Positions 40,081 through 61,810 of a DNA stretch of 64,000 nucleotides are shown here, piece after piece (the first letter of the stretch is position 1; each line of letters begins with the position of its first letter). Below the pieces are notes generated by a model, which did not search any database, was not told the origin of the DNA, and saw only the letters and a program-made list of their open reading frames with translations. The stretch spans positions 626,465 to 690,464 of the forward strand of contig NZ_KB912877.1 in NCBI RefSeq assembly GCF_000383855.1, read 5' to 3'. Position numbers and translations under genes: made by a program. The DNA comes from Methylobacter marinus A45. GTDB lineage: Bacteria; Pseudomonadota; Gammaproteobacteria; Methylococcales; Methylomonadaceae.

Positions 40081-42330
40081 TTACCCTCTAAATTTTACCC
40101 AATGCAAACGGTTGGCGTTAGAGACCACTGTCACGGATGACATGGCCATTGCCGCACCAGCTATCATAGGATTCAATAAAATTCCAAATACGGGATACAA
40201 CAACCCCGCCGCGACCGGAATACTGATCGTATTGTAGAAAAAAGCCCCGAGCAGATTCTGTTTTATATTGACCAGAGTCGCTTTGGACAATTCGATGGCC
40301 TCAGGAATTTTTAATAACGACCCTTGCAGAATGACGACATCAGCGCTTTCAATAGCAACGTCGGTGCCGGTACCGATAGCCAACCCGACATCGGCCTGAG
40401 CCAATGCCGGCGCGTCATTGATGCCGTCACCTACCATGCCGACAATTTCCCCTTGCTGCTGCAGTTCCTTCACGACAGCCGCCTTATCTTGCGGCAGCAC
40501 TTGCGCCCTGACTTCAGAAATACCCGCCTGGCGGGCAATAGCCTGCGCCGTAATTTCATTATCGCCAGTTACCATTAGCAGGCGAACGCCCTGGCTTTTC
40601 AATAACTGTACGGCCTCCGCCGAATCTTTTTTAATCGGATCCGACACGGCGATAATGCCGGCGACTTTATGATCCACTGCCAACAGCATCGGTGTTTGGC
40701 CCTGGGCTGAAAGCTTTTGCAATTTGCTGTTATATCGCGAATATTTGACGCCTTTTTTATCCATCAGCGCCTGATTGCCGAACAACACGGACTGTTCGTT
40801 GATTTGCGCCGTTACGCCATGCCCCGTAACCGCTTCAAATTTTTTGACTTTTTCCAGCCTGATGCCCCGGTCTTCCGCCGCCGACAAAATGGCCGCCGCT
40901 AACGGATGCTCCGAGCCGGCTTCAATACTCGCGGCCCATTGCAGAACAGCCTCATCGCTATAATCACCGATGGCTTCGATAGCCGAAACGACAGGTCTGC
41001 CCTCGGTTACCGTCCCGGTTTTGTCAAGTATCATACAAGTCAGCTTACCTGCCGTCTGTAGCGCCTCACCATTGCGGATCAAAATCCCTGACTGGGCGGC
41101 CCGGCCGACCGCGACCATGACTGAGATAGGCGTCGCCAGGCCGAGCGCGCAAGGACAGGCGATAACCAATACCGTCATGGAAGTCACAAAAGCATAGCCT
41201 AATGCTGGTTCCGGCCCCCAGGTATACCAAATCAGGAATGTCAGCACCGAAAGCGTGACCACTGCCGGTACAAAAACGGCTGCAATTTTATCAGCCAACC
41301 GGGCGATTTCAGGTTTACTGCTTTGTGCCTGGCGCACGCTTTTAATGATTTGCGCCAATGCGGTATCGCGGCCGATACGCGTCGCTTTGAACAGAAAACT
41401 GCCGGTCTGGTTTATCGTGCCGCCGACCACTTCTGATCCTACCGTTTTTTCTACCGGCAGCGGCTCGCCCGTCAGCATGGACTCATCAATAGTGGAATGC
41501 CCTTCCAGCAGCACGCCGTCCACAGCGATTTTTTCACCGGGCCTCACTCTCAACGTTTCGCCCAAGCCTACCAGTTCAATCGGAATATCCATTTCCACCC
41601 CGTCTCTAAGCACGCGCGCCGTGCGTGGCTGCAAACCGATCAGCTGGCGAATCGCTCCGGAAGTTTTGCCTCTGGCCCGCATTTCCAACGCTGAGCCGAG
41701 ATTAATAAATGCCAGGATGATCACGGCGGCCTCAAAATAGGCATGCCGGGCCAGGGAAGGCAGCGTGTCGGAATAGTCAATGACTATCGTGGAATAAAGC
41801 CATGCAGAGCCCGTGCCCAGAGCAATCAGGGTATCCATATTGGCCTGACCTAAACGTAGCGATTTGATCGCGCCGCTGAAAAAATGCCCGCCTGAATAAA
41901 ACAGGATGCAGAAGGTGATCAGCGCGATTTCCGGCCAGAACCATTGCCCTGCCGCCGAATCGATTTCAGGCAACCACCCGAGATGATCGCCAAGCATCAG
42001 CGGCACGCCAAGCATCGCGGCCGCGGATGCTTTTTTCATCAGGTTTCGGTAACGTTGCAGCTCCAGCTCTTCCTGTTCGGTTACATCTTCGAGCCCTTCC
42101 ATCACGGCTGCGTCATAACCGGCCTCCTTAACGGCCTGCGTTAACACCTCGGGATCGGCGTGTCCTTTTACCATCGCTGAATGATCGGCAAAATTGACAC
42201 TGACCGAAGTTACGCCTTCTACCGCGGACAAGGCACTCTCAACAGCACTTACGCAACCCGCGCAACGCATGCCCAAAATAGATAACCGCAACTCTTCCGC
42301 CGCCGTATCAGAAATTTCTTGTGCATTCAT
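40081..42330 (-). CDS. copA: Copper-translocating P1B-type ATPase
   Basis: This is a 749-residue pump with one N-terminal HMA domain ([13 protein letters not shown]). Eight membrane helices include the Cu(I)-binding ACPCALG motif. The cytoplasmic domains carry [11 protein letters not shown] (actuator), DKTGTVTEG (phosphorylated Asp) and [16 protein letters not shown]. The late [15 protein letters not shown] and [12 protein letters not shown] segments match the CopA subgroup. It exports Cu(I) from the cytoplasm, or delivers it for cuproenzymes. Copper supply would serve the cytochrome oxidase encoded at 54-57 kb. It lies 51 bases downstream of the copZ-like gene. Confidence 0.95.
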
Positions 42331-54317: not shown

Positions 54318-54470
54318 ATGACTCAATTAAGCGAAGAAGAACGCGAAAAAATCATCAAGAGCCCGCCTGTTGGCACCTGGGCTCTGATGCTAATGGTTGG
54401 CGCCGGCATGGTTGCCGCCTGGCTGTTTCTCTATTACGGCGTATTTCTGCCGCGTGGTGCTATAGACTAA
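54318..54470 (+). CDS. Small single-helix cytochrome oxidase subunit (ba3 subunit IIa-like)
   Basis: This 50-residue protein starts MTQLSEEEREKIIKS and has a single transmembrane helix, ALMLMVGAGMVAAWLFLYYGVF. A strong GAGGAGAAG ribosome-binding site precedes the ATG at 54318. It is ten bases upstream of the subunit II gene, in the position of the small subunit IIa (CbaD-like) of ba3-type oxidases. Homology is inferred from position and shape only, as the sequence is too short for a motif. Confidence 0.75.
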   Translation: MTQLSEEEREKIIKSPPVGTWALMLMVGAGMVAAWLFLYYGVFLPRGAID

Positions 54471-54480
54471 AGGGGACCTT

Positions 54481-55089
54481 ATGAATACCGACCCATTGAA
54501 AAAGAAATGGTCCAGTGCAATCCAGTCCTTAGCCGAGCAGTTTAAAGGCGACCCTGTTCATATTGATCCGTTGGAAAAAAAATGGGTATACGTGATACTG
54601 GGCATGGCCGGCCTGCTTGTCGGCATCATTATCATAGATGCGCTGTTTCACGGCATTAATCCTCCCAGCCATGTTGAAACCATCGATTCAGCCCGCCTGC
54701 ATCTGAGCGAGGAATTCGCCGAGGACAACCTGGGCGTTCAGGTTGATGAAAGCGGCAATATAACGGTCCGGATAGTAGCCGGTCGTTACGGATTTTACCC
54801 CAAACAGGTTACCGTCCCTTCCGGCACGACTTTAACATTCCGCTGGGCCAGCATGGATGTCTTGCACGGCATTCACTTGCCCATGACCAACATGAATACG
54901 ATGATACTGCCGGGCTATGTCGCAGAGCTGAAGACCGATTTTCCAAAACCCGGCAACTACCCTTTGCTATGCAATGAATATTGCGGCATGGGACACGATC
55001 ACATGTGGGGCAGTATCACAGTCGTCGCGAAAGAACACTGGACCGCACCGGTAAAAACAGCTTCCAAAGGAGACAGCAGTCATGAATGA
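54481..55089 (+). CDS. Cytochrome c oxidase subunit II, ba3-type
   Basis: This is a 202-residue protein with one transmembrane helix (VYVILGMAGLLVGIIIIDALF) and a periplasmic cupredoxin domain. The CuA ligands are visible: His in VLHGIHLP, then Cys-Asn-Glu-Tyr-Cys-Gly-Met-Gly-His and the Met of HDHM. CuA receives electrons from a c-type cytochrome. The N-terminal cytoplasmic stretch repeats an unusual DPLKKKWSS / DPLEKKWVY pattern. It overlaps the subunit I gene by eight bases. Confidence 0.93.
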   Translation: MNTDPLKKKWSSAIQSLAEQFKGDPVHIDPLEKKWVYVILGMAGLLVGIIIIDALFHGINPPSHVETIDSARLHLSEEFAEDNLGVQVDESGNITVRIVAGRYGFYPKQVTVPSGTTLTFRWASMDVLHGIHLPMTNMNTMILPGYVAELKTDFPKPGNYPLLCNEYCGMGHDHMWGSITVVAKEHWTAPVKTASKGDSSHE

Positions 55090-56707
55090 TGCTGAAGAAA
55101 AAAAACTGGCGCTAAGCCATATGTGGATCGCTTTCGGGGCATTCCTTATCGCCTCATTCATGGGCGCCTATCAGGTTCTGGAACGCAGCGGCTTCCTGCC
55201 GATTATTGAGTCAAGCCGGGTTTATTTCGCTTCGGTCAGCAGCCATGGCGTATTGATGGCTTATGTTTTAACGGTTTTTTTTATACCCGGTTTTGGTTAT
55301 TACACGGCCACGACCAGCCTGAAGCAGCCGGTATGGAACATAAAACTGGCCTGGGCCGGCTTCGGCGTGTCCCTGTTGGGCACGGTCCTGGCAGCCATCC
55401 CCTTGCTGACAGGTTCCGCTTCCGTACTCTATACCTTTTATCCGCCCATACAGGCGCACTCCTTGTTTTACGTCGGTGCCACCTTATTGCTTGCCGGCTC
55501 CTGGGTCTGGTGCTGGATCATGATTGTCATGATGGGGCAATGGAAGCAGGCCAACCCCGGACAGCCTGTGCCTCTGGCTATGTTCGCAACCGTGTCCAAT
55601 GCCGTGTTATGGCTATGGACCAGCGTCGGTGTTGCCCTGGAAGTATTGTTTCAACTGATCCCTCTGGCTTTCGGCTGGATGGATACGGTCGATCCCGGAC
55701 TGGCGCGCACCTTGTTTGCCTGGACCTTGCACCCCATTGTTTACTTCTGGCTGATCCCCGCCTACACGGCCTTTTATGTATTCGTGCCAAAGCAGGCGGG
55801 CAGCTATATACTGAGCGATGAACTGGCCAGAGTCTCCTTTATTGTGCTGGTCGTCTTCAGCCTGCCAATCGGCTTCCATCATTTATATATGGATCCGGAG
55901 CAGGCCAAAGGCTGGAAGCTATTGCACGGCATCGGTACATTTATCGTCACCCTGCCGACACTGCTGACCGGCTTTGCCGTGATTGCGTCGCTGGAAATAG
56001 CCGGCAAACTGCGCGGCGGCAAAGGCCTTTTCGGCTGGATTGGCGCCCTGCCTTGGCGCAACCCGATGGTGCTGGCCATGATTCTGGGCCTGATGATGCT
56101 GATGCTGGGCGGTTTCGGCGGCATCGTCAATGCCAGCTATGCCATGAACGCCATGATTCACAATACCGCCTGGGTTCCCGGCCATTTTCACCTGATCTTT
56201 GCCGGCACGACCGTCATCATGTACTTTGCCATTGCTTATTATCTCTGGCCAATATTGACGGGCAAGCCGCTGTTCTCGCAGAACATGGCCTTACTGCAGT
56301 TATGGACCTGGTTTATCGGCATGGTCGTCCTGAGCACTCCCTGGCACATTCTGGGATTATTAGGCCAGCCCCGGCGCATTTCCAGCGTTCAGTACAACAG
56401 CCCCCTTACCCTGGCATGGGATACATTTGAACTGGCCATGATTGTCGGCGGCCTGATAATGCTGGGGTCAGCTTGTTTATTTGTCTACAATCTGGCGAAG
56501 ACTCAATTAAATTCAACAACTGAAACCTATAAAGGCGAAGTCGAATACGCCGAACCGATCTATCCGGTCGCTCGTTTGCCTGAATTTCTGAATGACTTCA
56601 AAATCTGGAACTGGGTCATAGCAGCCGCCATGCTTATCAGTTTCGGCTATCCTATTCTTCAGTTCTTTTTCATGGACACGTTCGAATCAAGCGGATGGGG
56701 GTACTAA
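55082..56707 (+). CDS. Cytochrome c oxidase subunit I, ba3-type
   Basis: This 541-residue heme-copper oxidase has about 13 helices. It has SSHGVLMAYVLTV with the low-spin heme ligand region and TLHPIVYFWLIPAY (CuB His and cross-linked Tyr). FHHLYMDPEQ gives the CuB His pair, and VPGHFHLIFAGTTVIMYF holds the heme ligands near the end. The lack of the A-family D-channel signature and the relation to CbaA place it in the B-type (ba3) group, with high oxygen affinity. It reduces oxygen to water and pumps protons. Confidence 0.93.
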   Translation: MNDAEEKKLALSHMWIAFGAFLIASFMGAYQVLERSGFLPIIESSRVYFASVSSHGVLMAYVLTVFFIPGFGYYTATTSLKQPVWNIKLAWAGFGVSLLGTVLAAIPLLTGSASVLYTFYPPIQAHSLFYVGATLLLAGSWVWCWIMIVMMGQWKQANPGQPVPLAMFATVSNAVLWLWTSVGVALEVLFQLIPLAFGWMDTVDPGLARTLFAWTLHPIVYFWLIPAYTAFYVFVPKQAGSYILSDELARVSFIVLVVFSLPIGFHHLYMDPEQAKGWKLLHGIGTFIVTLPTLLTGFAVIASLEIAGKLRGGKGLFGWIGALPWRNPMVLAMILGLMMLMLGGFGGIVNASYAMNAMIHNTAWVPGHFHLIFAGTTVIMYFAIAYYLWPILTGKPLFSQNMALLQLWTWFIGMVVLSTPWHILGLLGQPRRISSVQYNSPLTLAWDTFELAMIVGGLIMLGSACLFVYNLAKTQLNSTTETYKGEVEYAEPIYPVARLPEFLNDFKIWNWVIAAAMLISFGYPILQFFFMDTFESSGWGY

Positions 56708-56708
56708 C

Positions 56709-57359
56709 ATGAATAAAATAATCCAAACGGCATTGCTGGGTCTTTTGGCCACAAGCCTTGCACATGCCGAACCCTCCTCTCAAGTTGCCTGGACGTCCGA
56801 CCAGCTGAACTTCGTAAAAAAAGGCAACAGCAAAAACGGCAAGGAATTGACCGCCCAGTGCATTGGCTGTCACGGCGAAAAAGGCATCAGTCCGACGCCT
56901 GGGTTTCCCTCGCTGGCGGGCCAGTTGGCAACCTATATCTACAAACAGTTGCAGGATTACAAAAACGGCCAGCGTACTCACCCGCTCATGACCTCGATAG
57001 CGGCGGGATTAAGCGACCAGGATATGGCCGATATGGCCGCCTGGTACAGTTCACTGCCGCCGCCCAGGAACAAAGCCGGCAATAAAGAGCTGGAAATTGC
57101 CGAGCGACTGGTATTCGAAGGCGACGGCAGGCGCACCCTGCCTCCGTGTTACACCTGTCATGGCCCCGAAGGGCAAGGCGAGAAAATGGATATACCGGCC
57201 CTGGCAGGGCAGCAGGCCGAATATTTCGCAGCCACACTCACGGCCTATAGAAATGGCGAGCGCCACAACGACATCTACAGTCGCATGCGCATACTCAGCC
57301 AGCAGCTGAGCGATACGGAAATACAAGAGCTTGCGCAATATTACCAGCAACTGCAGTGA
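56709..57359 (+). CDS. Diheme cytochrome c (c4-like)
   Basis: This 216-residue periplasmic protein has a signal peptide ending near SLAHA. Two CxxCH heme sites are present, CIGCH at 51-55 and CYTCH at 147-151. Each is followed by a distal Met-containing segment (HPLMTS, and the RMRIL region). The two domains match cytochrome c4, a common electron donor to oxidases. The gene starts one base after the subunit I stop and is co-transcribed, so it is the likely donor to the ba3-type oxidase. Confidence 0.92.
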   Translation: MNKIIQTALLGLLATSLAHAEPSSQVAWTSDQLNFVKKGNSKNGKELTAQCIGCHGEKGISPTPGFPSLAGQLATYIYKQLQDYKNGQRTHPLMTSIAAGLSDQDMADMAAWYSSLPPPRNKAGNKELEIAERLVFEGDGRRTLPPCYTCHGPEGQGEKMDIPALAGQQAEYFAATLTAYRNGERHNDIYSRMRILSQQLSDTEIQELAQYYQQLQ

Positions 57360-57369
57360 TGGTGAGACT

Positions 57370-59790
57370 ATGAACATCCTGCCTATAGGCCTGTTAACCA
57401 CGATGTTGGCAGGCAGCCTGTCAGTCCTGCCGGTTTTCGCCCAGGAAACGCCCGGGACGGGCAGCAGTAAGATTTTTAAGGCGAATGAACAGAAGCCGAA
57501 GAACGATTACAACATCACCATCAATTATGAACTGGGGATGCACTGCACCGGCTTTGACTTTTCTTACTGTTGCGTCCTGCCGCCCTACAATTCCATCCAG
57601 AGCCAGGTCATTAAGACGGCCGGCTCTACCTATGAATTTCCGCGGTTGCTGGTCGCCGACCCGAATGATCCGACCGTTTTAGTTGACGGCGACAAACGCA
57701 TGAAGCTTGAATACGGCCACGTCGGCAACACTTTTTCAGAAGGCACGAAGCTGGCTTACTGGAATATACCGTACGACGTAAACCACGATGGCAAATACGG
57801 CAATAATGAGAATGTGGCCAACGCTTATTTCACCCACCTGTATGTCTACAAGGGATTGAAAGGCGACAATCCCGACAACACCAGCAAGGACAGCGAAAAG
57901 CAGCGGATCGGCATCGAAATCCCCATCCCGCGCGATATGGGTCCGGCCGGCGCGGCGGCGCCGAGCCCCGTGAAAGGCGGCCATCTGCATTACACGGGCG
58001 ATAAGGGCACCGTTGTTTATACCAAATCGCCGGTACTGGACAACGTGCCTATCGTGCTGACCAACCCGGGCATCTGGGATGCGCTGGGTCTGCCGTTGAC
58101 GCCCTTCTATGACGACATGATGCGAAAAAGCCCGCTGGAAATCGTGGAAAGTGACATCCGGCCTTATCAGGAAGCCTGGGTGGGACTGGTCGACGCCAAA
58201 ACCAATCAGCCCATTATCGATAGCCATTCCGGCAACCCCGTGAAATTCATCGGCACCAATCCGATCGATGTGCCCAACTGCTCCAACTGTCATTCCAATG
58301 AGAACGCCAATGGCGACACCTTCACTTTGTACAAACAGGAAAAAGCGTTCTGGAAAGGTCTGGGCGCCAGCGATTACATGGCCGATTTAAAGGCCACATC
58401 CATTTCCATTTTACAGATCCACGACGCCCGCCACGGCACACAGTTTACGGCCAAATACGATCCATCGAGCCGAGCCACCCAAAACCGCTTGGGCGCCGAT
58501 CCGGTTTTATGCCAGCAATGCCATGCCGATAACGTCATCGGCGTGCTGCAATCGAAGGGTGTCGTCGAAGTCATTTCCGGCGGCCAGAAAATTGAAGGCG
58601 ACAATCCGATTCCGCCCCTGTCGCAAGCCTTGCACCGGGTTCATCAGACCATACGCCCCATGCCCGACTCGTACGGCCGCACCGGCACCTGCGCCGGCTG
58701 CCATCCTTCGCACAGGCAGGACGGCTCCATGGACGGCTATGCCATCACGGCGGACGGCAGGAATTTTTACGCCTCATCCGACAACCGCGACTCCAAAGGC
58801 GGGTGTTTTGCCAGCCGCGACGTCCATTCCAACCCCGACAAGGATAAAGACGGCGTCGGTACCCCCGAGCATCTGAATGAAATCGGCAAATGGATACAGG
58901 CCAATGTCTCTAAAATCGGCACCGGCGAAGGCGGCAACGGCGTCTGGTGCACCAACTGCCATACCCAGCTCTCCAGGGAACTGTATCAGCGAGATGATTT
59001 GGAAAATGCCTTCAAGCAAACCGGCAAAACCATCCGCGACCAGTCGCTGGATGACATCGCCAAGGCGATAGGCGTCGACCGCAGAACGCTGGAAGAACAG
59101 TATCTTGATCCTAAAGTGGTACCGGATGAAAACGGCCATGATACCCCCGGCAAATCCGGCATTCTGAAAACCTGGGCCAAGGACCACATGGTGCCTGACA
59201 TTGCCGTCATTGCCACCAAAGACGGCAAACCGCTGGTGACCAAGGATGAAGACGGTGATATTAATGTCTCGATATTATCGGCCAATCCTTCGGTAAAAAT
59301 GTCCGCGTTGACAGTGCCGGAAGACGCCAACGGCGTCACGGCGGTCTCCTATGACGCGGCCTCACACGGTCGGGACTACTGGCTGGCGCCCGGCGAGCCG
59401 CATTGCGCCGACTGTCACGCGCCGCCCTACGTCGAAGGCCAGGGCGGCGTAGCCTTCCCGATCAATCAGCCCGGCAAGTACAGCCTGATGCGCTATTCGA
59501 AAGGCCATGCCGGCCTTGCCTGTCAGGCTTGTCACGAGTCCATCCACGGCTTGTACCCGGTAACGACGGCAGTCGACACCACGACTTACAAACAGGCCCC
59601 GCAATACAATCCGGACGGCAGCCACGGTCCGCTGTTATGCGCATCCTGTCATCAGACCAACCAATTCGGCGTGCCGGTTGTCGCGGAAGCGTTGACCTGG
59701 AACGGCAAGAAAATCAAGGATGATCTGGATGCGGCAATCAGCTGGATACATGCCAACGCGCCGGATTTGGGCGGCAAAAATCCTAAATAA
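57370..59790 (+). CDS. Multiheme cytochrome c with seven CxxCH sites and a Cys/His-rich N-terminal domain
   Basis: This is an 806-residue secreted protein with a signal peptide (LLTTMLAGSLSVLPVFA). Heme-binding CxxCH sites start at residues 304, 381, 441, 527, 679, 718 and 757, so seven hemes are expected. Before them is a domain of about 250 residues with a distinctive cluster, ELGMHCTGFDFSYCC at about 55-68. It has no CxxCH but contains His58, Cys59, Cys67 and Cys68 and could bind a metal. The start at 57370 begins the signal peptide; the earlier frame at 57331 overlaps the cytochrome c4 gene. It is the fifth gene of the oxidase operon. The role is likely periplasmic or outer-face electron transfer; the exact partner is unknown. 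Confidence 0.85.
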   Translation: MNILPIGLLTTMLAGSLSVLPVFAQETPGTGSSKIFKANEQKPKNDYNITINYELGMHCTGFDFSYCCVLPPYNSIQSQVIKTAGSTYEFPRLLVADPNDPTVLVDGDKRMKLEYGHVGNTFSEGTKLAYWNIPYDVNHDGKYGNNENVANAYFTHLYVYKGLKGDNPDNTSKDSEKQRIGIEIPIPRDMGPAGAAAPSPVKGGHLHYTGDKGTVVYTKSPVLDNVPIVLTNPGIWDALGLPLTPFYDDMMRKSPLEIVESDIRPYQEAWVGLVDAKTNQPIIDSHSGNPVKFIGTNPIDVPNCSNCHSNENANGDTFTLYKQEKAFWKGLGASDYMADLKATSISILQIHDARHGTQFTAKYDPSSRATQNRLGADPVLCQQCHADNVIGVLQSKGVVEVISGGQKIEGDNPIPPLSQALHRVHQTIRPMPDSYGRTGTCAGCHPSHRQDGSMDGYAITADGRNFYASSDNRDSKGGCFASRDVHSNPDKDKDGVGTPEHLNEIGKWIQANVSKIGTGEGGNGVWCTNCHTQLSRELYQRDDLENAFKQTGKTIRDQSLDDIAKAIGVDRRTLEEQYLDPKVVPDENGHDTPGKSGILKTWAKDHMVPDIAVIATKDGKPLVTKDEDGDINVSILSANPSVKMSALTVPEDANGVTAVSYDAASHGRDYWLAPGEPHCADCHAPPYVEGQGGVAFPINQPGKYSLMRYSKGHAGLACQACHESIHGLYPVTTAVDTTTYKQAPQYNPDGSHGPLLCASCHQTNQFGVPVVAEALTWNGKKIKDDLDAAISWIHANAPDLGGKNPK

Positions 59791-59849: not shown

Positions 59850-61097
59850 ATGCCTATAAAGAAGATCGGTTTATTATTCTGGCTTGCCTGCACCATTAGC
59901 GGCGCTGCCGTCGCCGACACGGTGCTGGTCAAAGTCGGCAACGGCCAGGTTACCGAACAGCAACTGGAAAAAGCCATGAGTGCGGCGCCTTTCGCCAGTC
60001 AGTTTCCGGCGATGGATGAAAAAGACCAGGCCTACCTGCGCGGCGACATGCTGATGCGTCTGGCCCGATCGGAAGCGCTCTATCAGGAAGCCGTCGCCTC
60101 GGGCATGACCGAAACCCAGACCTACAGGCAGGAAATGAGCAATTTCCGCACGTCCCTGCTGGCGCAACGTTATCTGACGCATCTGCGCGATCAGATCAGC
60201 ATCCCGGCAGCCTTGGAAAGCCGACTGAAAGACGACTTGAAAGGCAACGGCGACGCGCTTATGGCGGCCCGCGCCGCCTATATTGCGCGGCAATTCAAGA
60301 ATTTGAAGGAAAGCCGCATAGCCGAGCTTAAACAACAAGCCCGCATCAAAACTTATTTCGAACGTCTGGATAAAAATACAAAAGCCGATACCGTACTGGC
60401 GGAAGCGACCGGCTATACCATTAAATACGCCGATCTGATGCCGCCTCAAGGCGCTGTTAGCACAGATCCTCAACCTATTAAAGACAAGGTCAACGAGTGG
60501 CTTGAACTAATGCTTCTGGCACGTGCGGCAGTAGCCGAGGGCATTGACGTTGAAACGCAAGTGGCCGATTACGGGCACTATCTGGGCGCCAAAATGCTGC
60601 TGGCGGCACAGGAACGGCAATGGATACCCGACGATAAAACGCTGCTCGATTATTTCCATAAACATCCGGAGATCGGCTACATCCCCGAACGCAGGCAAAT
60701 CGGCCAGCTTGTCGCGGCCACCAGGGAACAGGCCGAAGCCCTGCGCCGACGCATACAGGCCGGTGAAAGCCTGTTTAAACTGGCGGCCGAATACAGCATC
60801 GATCCGTATGGCCGCGAGCATGCCGGCGATATGGGCTGGCTGCAGGAAGGCAGCGGTTTCGACGCGGTCGAACAGGTCCTGAAAATACTGCCAAACAATC
60901 AGGTCAGCGATATTATCCAGACCCCCAGGGGCTGGCACCTGGTCATGATCGTGAACCGCAAGCCTGCCGAGCATAAAGAATTTGCAGGGATAAAAGATAG
61001 GGTAAAACAGGCCTTGATCGCCGAGAAAATGACGGCTTATCTGGAACAGGTCATGGCCAGGCATCCGCTGGATTGGCAGATAAAAGACCGTATTTGA
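59850..61097 (+). CDS. Periplasmic peptidyl-prolyl cis-trans isomerase, parvulin type
   Basis: This is a 415-residue protein with a signal peptide (IGLLFWLACTISGAAVA). The N-terminal part is a SurA/PrsA-like chaperone region rich in helices. A rotamase domain lies at about 275-360: ERRQIGQLVAATREQAEALRR, then LAAEYSIDPYGREHAGDMGW and VSDIIQTPRGWHLVMIV. An earlier ATG at 59811 lacks a signal-peptide fit. The position after the cytochromes suggests that it helps fold the multiheme cytochrome or another exported protein. Confidence 0.87.
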   Translation: MPIKKIGLLFWLACTISGAAVADTVLVKVGNGQVTEQQLEKAMSAAPFASQFPAMDEKDQAYLRGDMLMRLARSEALYQEAVASGMTETQTYRQEMSNFRTSLLAQRYLTHLRDQISIPAALESRLKDDLKGNGDALMAARAAYIARQFKNLKESRIAELKQQARIKTYFERLDKNTKADTVLAEATGYTIKYADLMPPQGAVSTDPQPIKDKVNEWLELMLLARAAVAEGIDVETQVADYGHYLGAKMLLAAQERQWIPDDKTLLDYFHKHPEIGYIPERRQIGQLVAATREQAEALRRRIQAGESLFKLAAEYSIDPYGREHAGDMGWLQEGSGFDAVEQVLKILPNNQVSDIIQTPRGWHLVMIVNRKPAEHKEFAGIKDRVKQALIAEKMTAYLEQVMARHPLDWQIKDRI

Positions 61098-61114: not shown

Positions 61115-61672
61115 TCACTCAAGCAACGGTTTGACGATCGTGTCGAATGCCTCATCATTAAAGATACCGGTTTGCATGAAGACCGGCCGGCCTTCGCGAT
61201 CGATGATAACGGTAAAAGGCAGAACGCCGGCCGGGTCGCCCCACTGATTCAATAACTCATATTGCTGGGCGGGGTCGGCGCGTAGGATTGGATAATTGAT
61301 TCCCAGGGTACGGGCATAGTTGCGTAATTTTTTTGTCTCATCGAGACCGATGCCGATAATCTGCAGTCCCTGCCCTGCATAGGCCTGCTGATATTTCATA
61401 AAATACGGAATTTCAATCTGACAAGGACCGCACCAGGTCGCCCAAAAGTTCAGCATGATGACTTTGCCGCGCCACTCAGACAGATTATGCTCTTTTCCAT
61501 CGAGGTCGTTCAGGATCAAAGCAGGTAGAGCCCTGACCTTGTTTACCGGCCTGATATGTTCGGTCTGCGCAGCCATGGCGGGCGCGCAGAATCCTATAGC
61601 GCCTGACAATATTGCGGCCATACCGACATACCATATCGGGAGCACTTTTTCTTTTTTAACCAATTTAATCAT
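61115..61672 (-). CDS. TlpA-like periplasmic thioredoxin
   Basis: This 185-residue protein has a membrane-anchor or signal segment (VLPIWYVGMAAILSGAIGFCA). The thioredoxin fold carries LNFWATWCGPCQIEIPYF, with WCGPC as the active site. DETKKLRNYARTLGINYPIL and the cis-Pro in GVLPFTVIID follow. TlpA proteins reduce apo-cytochromes or copper centres before cofactor insertion. It converges on the isomerase gene and lies close to the oxidase operon, so a role in CuA or heme site reduction is reasonable but inferred. The open frame to 61786 is not needed. Confidence 0.88.
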   Translation of the reverse strand: MIKLVKKEKVLPIWYVGMAAILSGAIGFCAPAMAAQTEHIRPVNKVRALPALILNDLDGKEHNLSEWRGKVIMLNFWATWCGPCQIEIPYFMKYQQAYAGQGLQIIGIGLDETKKLRNYARTLGINYPILRADPAQQYELLNQWGDPAGVLPFTVIIDREGRPVFMQTGIFNDEAFDTIVKPLLE

Positions 61673-61810
61673 AATGTTACACGCCAATGACTTAAGAGAT
61701 TGAGATAAACCGAAACAGAGTCGATAGACTATATTAATAATTCCTAATATACTAAAAGTATATCCAGGCTGATTTTCCGACTGCAAATAACAAAAAAAAC
61801 GGCATACACC

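Follow-up and report, generated by a model that had tools for sequence, protein, structure and literature searches.

The copper of the octaheme sulfite reductase MccA is bound by two cysteines. This copper lies at the active site (PMC6703420). The MccA/SirA enzymes also have a heme with a CX12-15CH motif, a quinol module of the NrfCD type, extra conserved cysteines and a set of maturation genes; one of these encodes SirH, a TlpA-family protein that matures the multiheme sulfite reductase SirA and is needed for full SirA levels (PMC6976685). Other described proteins, MtrC, OmcA, MtrF and UndA, combine a beta-domain with a heme domain and carry a CX8C motif in the beta-domain, which in MtrC forms a flavin-control disulfide (PMC4486940). 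MtrC and OmcA are lipoproteins of the outer membrane that have ten hemes in two pentaheme domains and MtrAB as a partner. In PCC3, Uet and other porin-cytochrome clusters, a multiheme cytochrome has a PPIase gene as a neighbor (the Uet cluster includes one; PMC10734462), together with a porin and a larger number of cytochromes or hemes. The cluster described in a paper on Methylobacter at a bioanode is of the MtrAB type and is a different system from the one analyzed here (PMC13322032).

We analyzed a 64,000-nucleotide stretch of the Methylobacter marinus A45 genome, hereafter the window, in which a multiheme cytochrome is encoded in an oxidase operon (Table 1). The frame of this gene is open from a TTG codon at position 57331 to position 59790; the ATG at 57370, with GGTGAG ahead of it, is the likely start. 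The intact 806-residue product has seven CXXCH motifs, in agreement with the seven hemes of the first-pass annotation; every CH dipeptide lies inside one of them, and the atypical CX12-15CH motif is absent. Its only non-heme cysteines are C59, C67, C68 and C479, and its mass amounts to about 12.1 kDa for each heme. The leader is of the signal-peptidase-I type as judged from its sequence, with the predicted cleavage site given in Table 1. H58, C59, C67 and C68 lie within the N-terminal 300 or so residues, mostly occupied by a heme-free domain of about 255 residues. This domain had been left unassigned and falls within no sequence family of Pfam, NCBIfam or the PDB. Sequence searches of the PDB gave nothing below an E value of 0.06 with a profile of the family, or below 0.04 with a profile of the wider superfamily defined below.

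The genes for CoxII, CoxI and a cytochrome c4 are found directly upstream, which confirms the earlier observation that the gene is linked with a ba3 oxidase and a c4. The oxidase has the CuA motif in CoxII and the HPxxY motif in CoxI that mark the ba3 (B) type; the HPIVY form is presumably that of B-type enzymes, an assignment taken from the ba3 oxidase of T. thermophilus. The 50-residue peptide at the operon head had no Pfam match; by its position, it is a small IIa-like oxidase subunit. No terminator-like sites were found on the plus strand inside the operon.

Table 1. Oxidase operon, neighboring genes and parts of the seven-heme cytochrome, in positions of the window
Feature	Positions	Strand	Basis
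50-aa peptide with a single TM segment, head of the oxidase operon	54318..54470	+	Reading frame; group f6 relatives head other cox operons
CoxII, CuA motif CNEYCGMGHDHM	54481..55089	+	PF00116, 28 bits
CoxI, heme-copper oxidase, HPIVY	55082..56707	+	PF00115, 291 bits
Diheme cytochrome c4-type protein, two CXXCH	56709..57359	+	PF00034, two stretches
Seven-heme cytochrome, 806 aa	57370..59790	+	Directly after c4
Sec signal peptide, LSVLPVFA before and QE after the predicted cleavage site, no lipobox	57370..57444	+	Sequence
N-terminal domain, residues 46-300, predicted beta-sandwich, no named family	57505..58269	+	AF2, pLDDT 77, pTM 0.76
NYELGMHCTGFDFSYCCVLPPYNS motif, residues 52-75, with H58, C59, C67, C68	57523..57594	+	Invariant in alignment A1; most conserved segment
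Heme motif 1, C304SNCH	58279..58293	+	
Heme motif 2, C381QQCH	58510..58524	+	
Heme motif 3, C441AGCH	58690..58704	+	
Conserved non-heme loop, residues 446-488: H448, R449, D471, R473, C479, R483, D484, H486, N488	58705..58833	+	
C479, superfamily-invariant non-heme Cys in the heme domain	58804..58806	+	22/22 superfamily rows; 57/58 own-branch rows
Heme motif 4, C527TNCH	58948..58962	+	
Heme motif 5, C679ADCH	59404..59418	+	
Heme motif 6, C718QACH	59521..59535	+	
Heme motif 7, C757ASCH	59638..59652	+	
Parvulin-type PPIase, downstream of the cytochrome	59850..61097	+	PF00639/PF13616
TlpA/ResA-like thioredoxin, WCGPC active site, convergent	61115..61786	-	PF00578, PF08534

Conservation was examined at two depths. 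A single scan of contigs from bacterial genomes returned 47 loci, from Methylobacter, Methylomonas, Sedimenticola, tubeworm endosymbionts, Thiotrichaceae, Rhodocyclaceae, a Hyphomicrobiales bin, Calditrichota and Nitrospirota. In an alignment of 39 homologues (A1), H58, C59, C67 and C68 were invariant in all 39 rows, and the most conserved 15-residue segment of the whole protein was centered around residue 61, above every heme motif. Therefore, the cluster formed by these four residues, whose invariance the first-pass annotation had proposed to check, is not due to chance. A survey of homologues found no known multiheme reductase with an assigned substrate, and no published paper was found that names this protein or any set of multiheme cytochrome, PPIase and TlpA. 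The seven-heme protein is a real, conserved and unnamed branch of multiheme cytochromes, and the N-terminal motif described in the first-pass annotation is borne out, more strongly than was stated there.

Distant relatives share the N-terminal domain, the hemes and an NDLGMHC...DF...ILPPFN pattern with this family, and their profile aligned with the family profile at an hhalign probability of 100 (E 3e-38 over residues 46-447). We define here the LGMHC superfamily by the N-domain motif GMHC...LPP[YF]N, seven in-register hemes and C479, and the YCC branch by the same features together with C67, C68, H448 and H486; the window protein has all of these features, as well as the adjacent, co-occurring PPIase. 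The seven heme motifs were in register across the superfamily, and in its 22 rows H58, C59, C479, H351, H422, H425, H713, H726 and H752 were kept wherever a row covered the site. Seven of these residues (58, 351, 422, 425, 713, 726 and 752) are histidines outside CXXCH, a count that equals one per heme. Superfamily members outside the branch, for example L018, L091 and L097, are like the window protein in the N-terminal domain, the register of the first hemes, H58, C59, C479 and the distal histidines. However, they have mostly nine hemes, mostly F at position 67 and S or A at 68, mostly K or S in place of H448, and mostly K or N in place of H486. Within the branch, C67, C68, H448 and H486 were invariant in A1 and were kept in 55 to 58 of 58 non-redundant rows, the exceptions being gaps and one paralogue. 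According to these alignments, the four residues are hallmarks of the YCC branch only. Superfamily relatives occurred neither in viral contigs nor in plasmids, and none of the seven superfamily contexts read had the recurrent PPIase, TlpA or oxidase genes alongside.

Structure prediction gave a beta-rich N-terminal domain when this part was modeled alone, with the scores listed in Table 1. The full-length AF2 model had a pLDDT below 50 at residues 54-72 and 478-500, among its lowest values. A Foldseek comparison of the N-terminal domain with the PDB gave E values of at least 0.3. The best Z score on a second look was 6.0, to the copper protein FetP/P19; as this lies within the range of chance arrangements, we assign no fold on its basis. 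MccA, NrfA and MtrC did not appear in these lists, which does not count as evidence. The domain is thus modeled as a beta-sandwich with no convincing match in the PDB.

A Nitrospirota genome (G333) holds five paralogues of the cytochrome. One of the five (L118, 4403-6766, minus strand), in this Nitrospirota bin, has an open frame of 787 residues with all seven heme motifs and 14 of 14 heme cysteines. It retains H58, H448 and H486 and carries the changes C59I, C67T, C68A and C479S, so that the 15 altered positions among 118 otherwise invariant ones include all four non-heme cysteines (p 1.8e-4, for one sequence and with phylogeny ignored). Because exactly these cysteines were lost while the hemes and H58 were kept, this one paralogue suggests that C59, C67, C68 and C479 are one functional unit whose members are retained or lost together; H58 seems to be part of the heme system and looks like a heme ligand. 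The single Cys/His cluster proposed earlier therefore stands as regards its invariance but not its composition, since H58 would go with the hemes and the cysteine set would extend to C479 in the heme domain.

The four cysteines could instead form structural disulfides only. A C59-C479 bond would staple the N-terminal domain to the heme core, C67-C68 (or a swapped pairing) would make a second bond, and the protein would serve as an electron relay or store that links c4 with other carriers and performs no chemistry itself. The co-invariance of C59 and C479 in the superfamily, the pairing of C67 with C68, the absence of all four from L118 and the thiol-disulfide protein encoded next door are all consistent with this role. 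It would also fit that, with H58 as a ligand, every heme would be bis-His and no heme site would be open. However, two independent disulfides need not disappear jointly. Moreover, charged residues, and not just cysteines, are conserved in the N-domain loop and in the 446-488 segment, both in A1 and in the 58-row set, far beyond the need of a staple. The protein content per heme is also high for a mere wire: according to a review, peptide-replete multihemes with more than 7 kDa per heme are all catalytic, and the cytochrome therefore falls in the range called catalytic there (PMC7096707). We regard a purely structural role as possible, at a tentative level.

Gene neighborhoods were then compared across genomes. 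The PPIase gene lay just downstream of the cytochrome gene in 37 of 42 testable loci in a synteny table read by eye. Three of the five exceptions (L049, L065 and L120) were oxidase-linked copies from genomes that hold a second, PPIase-linked copy. Among 61 related genomes, the PPIase was present in 13 of the 15 that have the cytochrome and in none of the other 46 (Fisher p 1.6e-11, phylogeny ignored); the two cytochrome genomes lacking it, G005 and G022, had only cytochrome fragments near a contig end. The TlpA-like gene accompanied the cytochrome in loci without the oxidase. A ba3 CoxI was found in 40 of the 61 family genomes, and since most of these lacked the cytochrome, the oxidase does not need it. 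When seven CoxI contexts were read, the full cassette was seen in one (L131) and the cytochrome was absent from the others. Thus, the constant partners of the cytochrome are the parvulin PPIase and the TlpA-like thioredoxin, not the oxidase, and the oxidase coupling stated in the first-pass annotation holds for the window operon but not for the family.

Oxidase linkage was found in two lineages, Methylomonadaceae and Sedimenticola-type loci. A first tree suggested an independent double origin; we dropped this idea, as one origin was not rejected (p-AU 0.36). In the Sedimenticola-type loci, a copper-type P-ATPase gene lies between c4 and the cytochrome gene, and a relative of it, a heavy-metal P-type ATPase, is encoded elsewhere in the window (40081-42330, minus strand). 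Other loci have a NapC/NirT protein and c4, fused in one kind, and c4 adjoins the cytochrome gene in loci of the oxidase-linked as well as the NapC-linked kind.

Several further arrangements were observed. In a Calditrichota locus (L055:5247-7911), a gene for a protein that resembles cytochrome bd subunit I and is fused to a c-type heme domain lies, together with an unnamed membrane partner, directly upstream of the seven-heme gene. L059, L063, L068 and L072 have in tandem a nine-heme paralogue of 1039-1252 residues, the PPIase, a seven-heme paralogue and a TlpA-like gene, which in L063, L068 and L072 is preceded by a small lipoprotein-like gene. Another large nine-heme protein, with a carboxypeptidase-regulatory-like domain and a PF22113 score of 54 bits, is encoded near the nine-heme paralogues in L071 (14094-16958) and L073 (12747-15542). 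A PAS-containing sigma-54 activator gene is near the cytochrome gene in L046, L047, L070, L073, L074 and L115, identified by Pfam in L070 and by BLAST grouping in the rest.

Two non-heme cysteines that are invariant and come from different segments raised the comparison with MccA/SirA, in which case C59 and C479 would bind Cu(I) next to a heme, and a small oxyanion of sulfur or nitrogen would be the substrate. The PPIase and TlpA-like protein dedicated to the cytochrome and the many sulfur-oxidizing hosts point the same way. However, the family showed no sequence match to any solved MccA/SirA enzyme, the protein has seven hemes rather than eight and no CX12-15CH motif, an NrfCD-type module was not seen with it, and no heme site would be open if H58 is a ligand. 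We consider such an enzyme very unlikely.

Extracellular electron exchange was the other comparison to be weighed: the protein would work at the outer membrane like MtrC or OmcA, passing electrons to or from minerals or other cells. A lipobox pattern was present in 22 of 64 listed proteins, the hosts live at redox interfaces, and the C59-X8-C68 spacing equals that of the MtrC disulfide motif (PMC4486940), although by count alone, C68 being absent from the superfamily. MtrC was also the top row of a PDB fold search with the whole model, a very weak match (Z 2.6, the highest value for this model), and PF22113 (MtrC/MtrF domains II/IV) matched all 39 members (best 6.7e-9). We rejected PF22113 as an unspecific sign of kinship with MtrC, since the family scored 29.6 bits where the cut-off is 30, a NapC protein and a NapC-c4 fusion scored 27.4 and 39.7, and control genomes also matched. 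Solved MtrC and OmcA structures gave no sequence match with the family, and a lipobox is lacking from the window protein. In its genome, neither an MtrB/PioB porin nor an MtrA/DmsE decaheme scored above the cut-off (PF11854/TIGR03508), no porin or further cytochromes of the PCC3/Uet kind were found at the locus, and none of the recurrent partners was noticed to be a porin. Two other multiheme-like open frames of 771 and 851 residues elsewhere in the genome, outside the window (G000, C1:4863695-4864468 and C1:1569685-1570203) gave sub-threshold DmsE/MtrA or PF22113 matches. The extracellular or metal-oxidation route suggested earlier is thus unsupported for Methylobacter, and we hold an MtrC/OmcA-like role to be doubtful. 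The cytochrome is probably periplasmic in Methylobacter and lipid-anchored in many relatives; with a lipobox in about one-third of the listed homologues, some relatives may be exposed at the surface.

The data suggest a redox enzyme that is still uncharacterized rather than a plain electron wire. We give about an even chance to a cell-envelope multiheme oxidoreductase with a thiolate site near its hemes that exchanges electrons with cytochrome c4. This reading is favored because of the protein-per-heme ratio and because the PPIase and TlpA-like protein recall the maturation sets of multiheme reductases. In such an enzyme, the small beta-sandwich would pack over the seven-heme core, and H58 would most likely ligate one heme on its distal side. 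Where the two domains meet, C59, C67 and C68 from the N-domain loop and C479 from the heme domain would make up a single thiolate site beside the hemes, either metal-bound or as a redox-active disulfide set. The invariant H448, R449, D471, R473, R483, D484 and H486 are probably near this site, which is where the substrate chemistry would likely take place. During maturation, the PPIase and TlpA-like protein dedicated to the cytochrome would fold it and maintain its cysteines in the reduced state, although the TlpA-like protein could also serve the CuA site of CoxII. Against the proposed enzyme, the superfamily outside the branch does without C67 and C68 and, in the contexts read, without the partners.

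As the gene sits in an oxidase operon, the electron path in Methylobacter would most likely lead from a substrate through the hemes to c4, the ba3 oxidase and O2. In relatives linked to NapC/NirT and c4, electrons could run the reverse way, from quinol. A more specific proposal, which we think rather improbable, is that the four cysteines hold a metal center such as copper between the beta-sandwich and the hemes; the protein would then be an undescribed heme-metal oxidoreductase by which methanotrophs and sulfur bacteria of the Sedimenticola type feed a periplasmic substrate into c4 and the ba3 oxidase.

If the favored reading holds, an unnamed multiheme enzyme family would be common to aerobic methanotrophs, sulfur-oxidizing vent symbionts and two further phyla. 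The natural paralogue without the whole cysteine site offers a ready genetic test. In Methylobacter, the cytochrome may reveal an extra respiratory electron donor besides methane.
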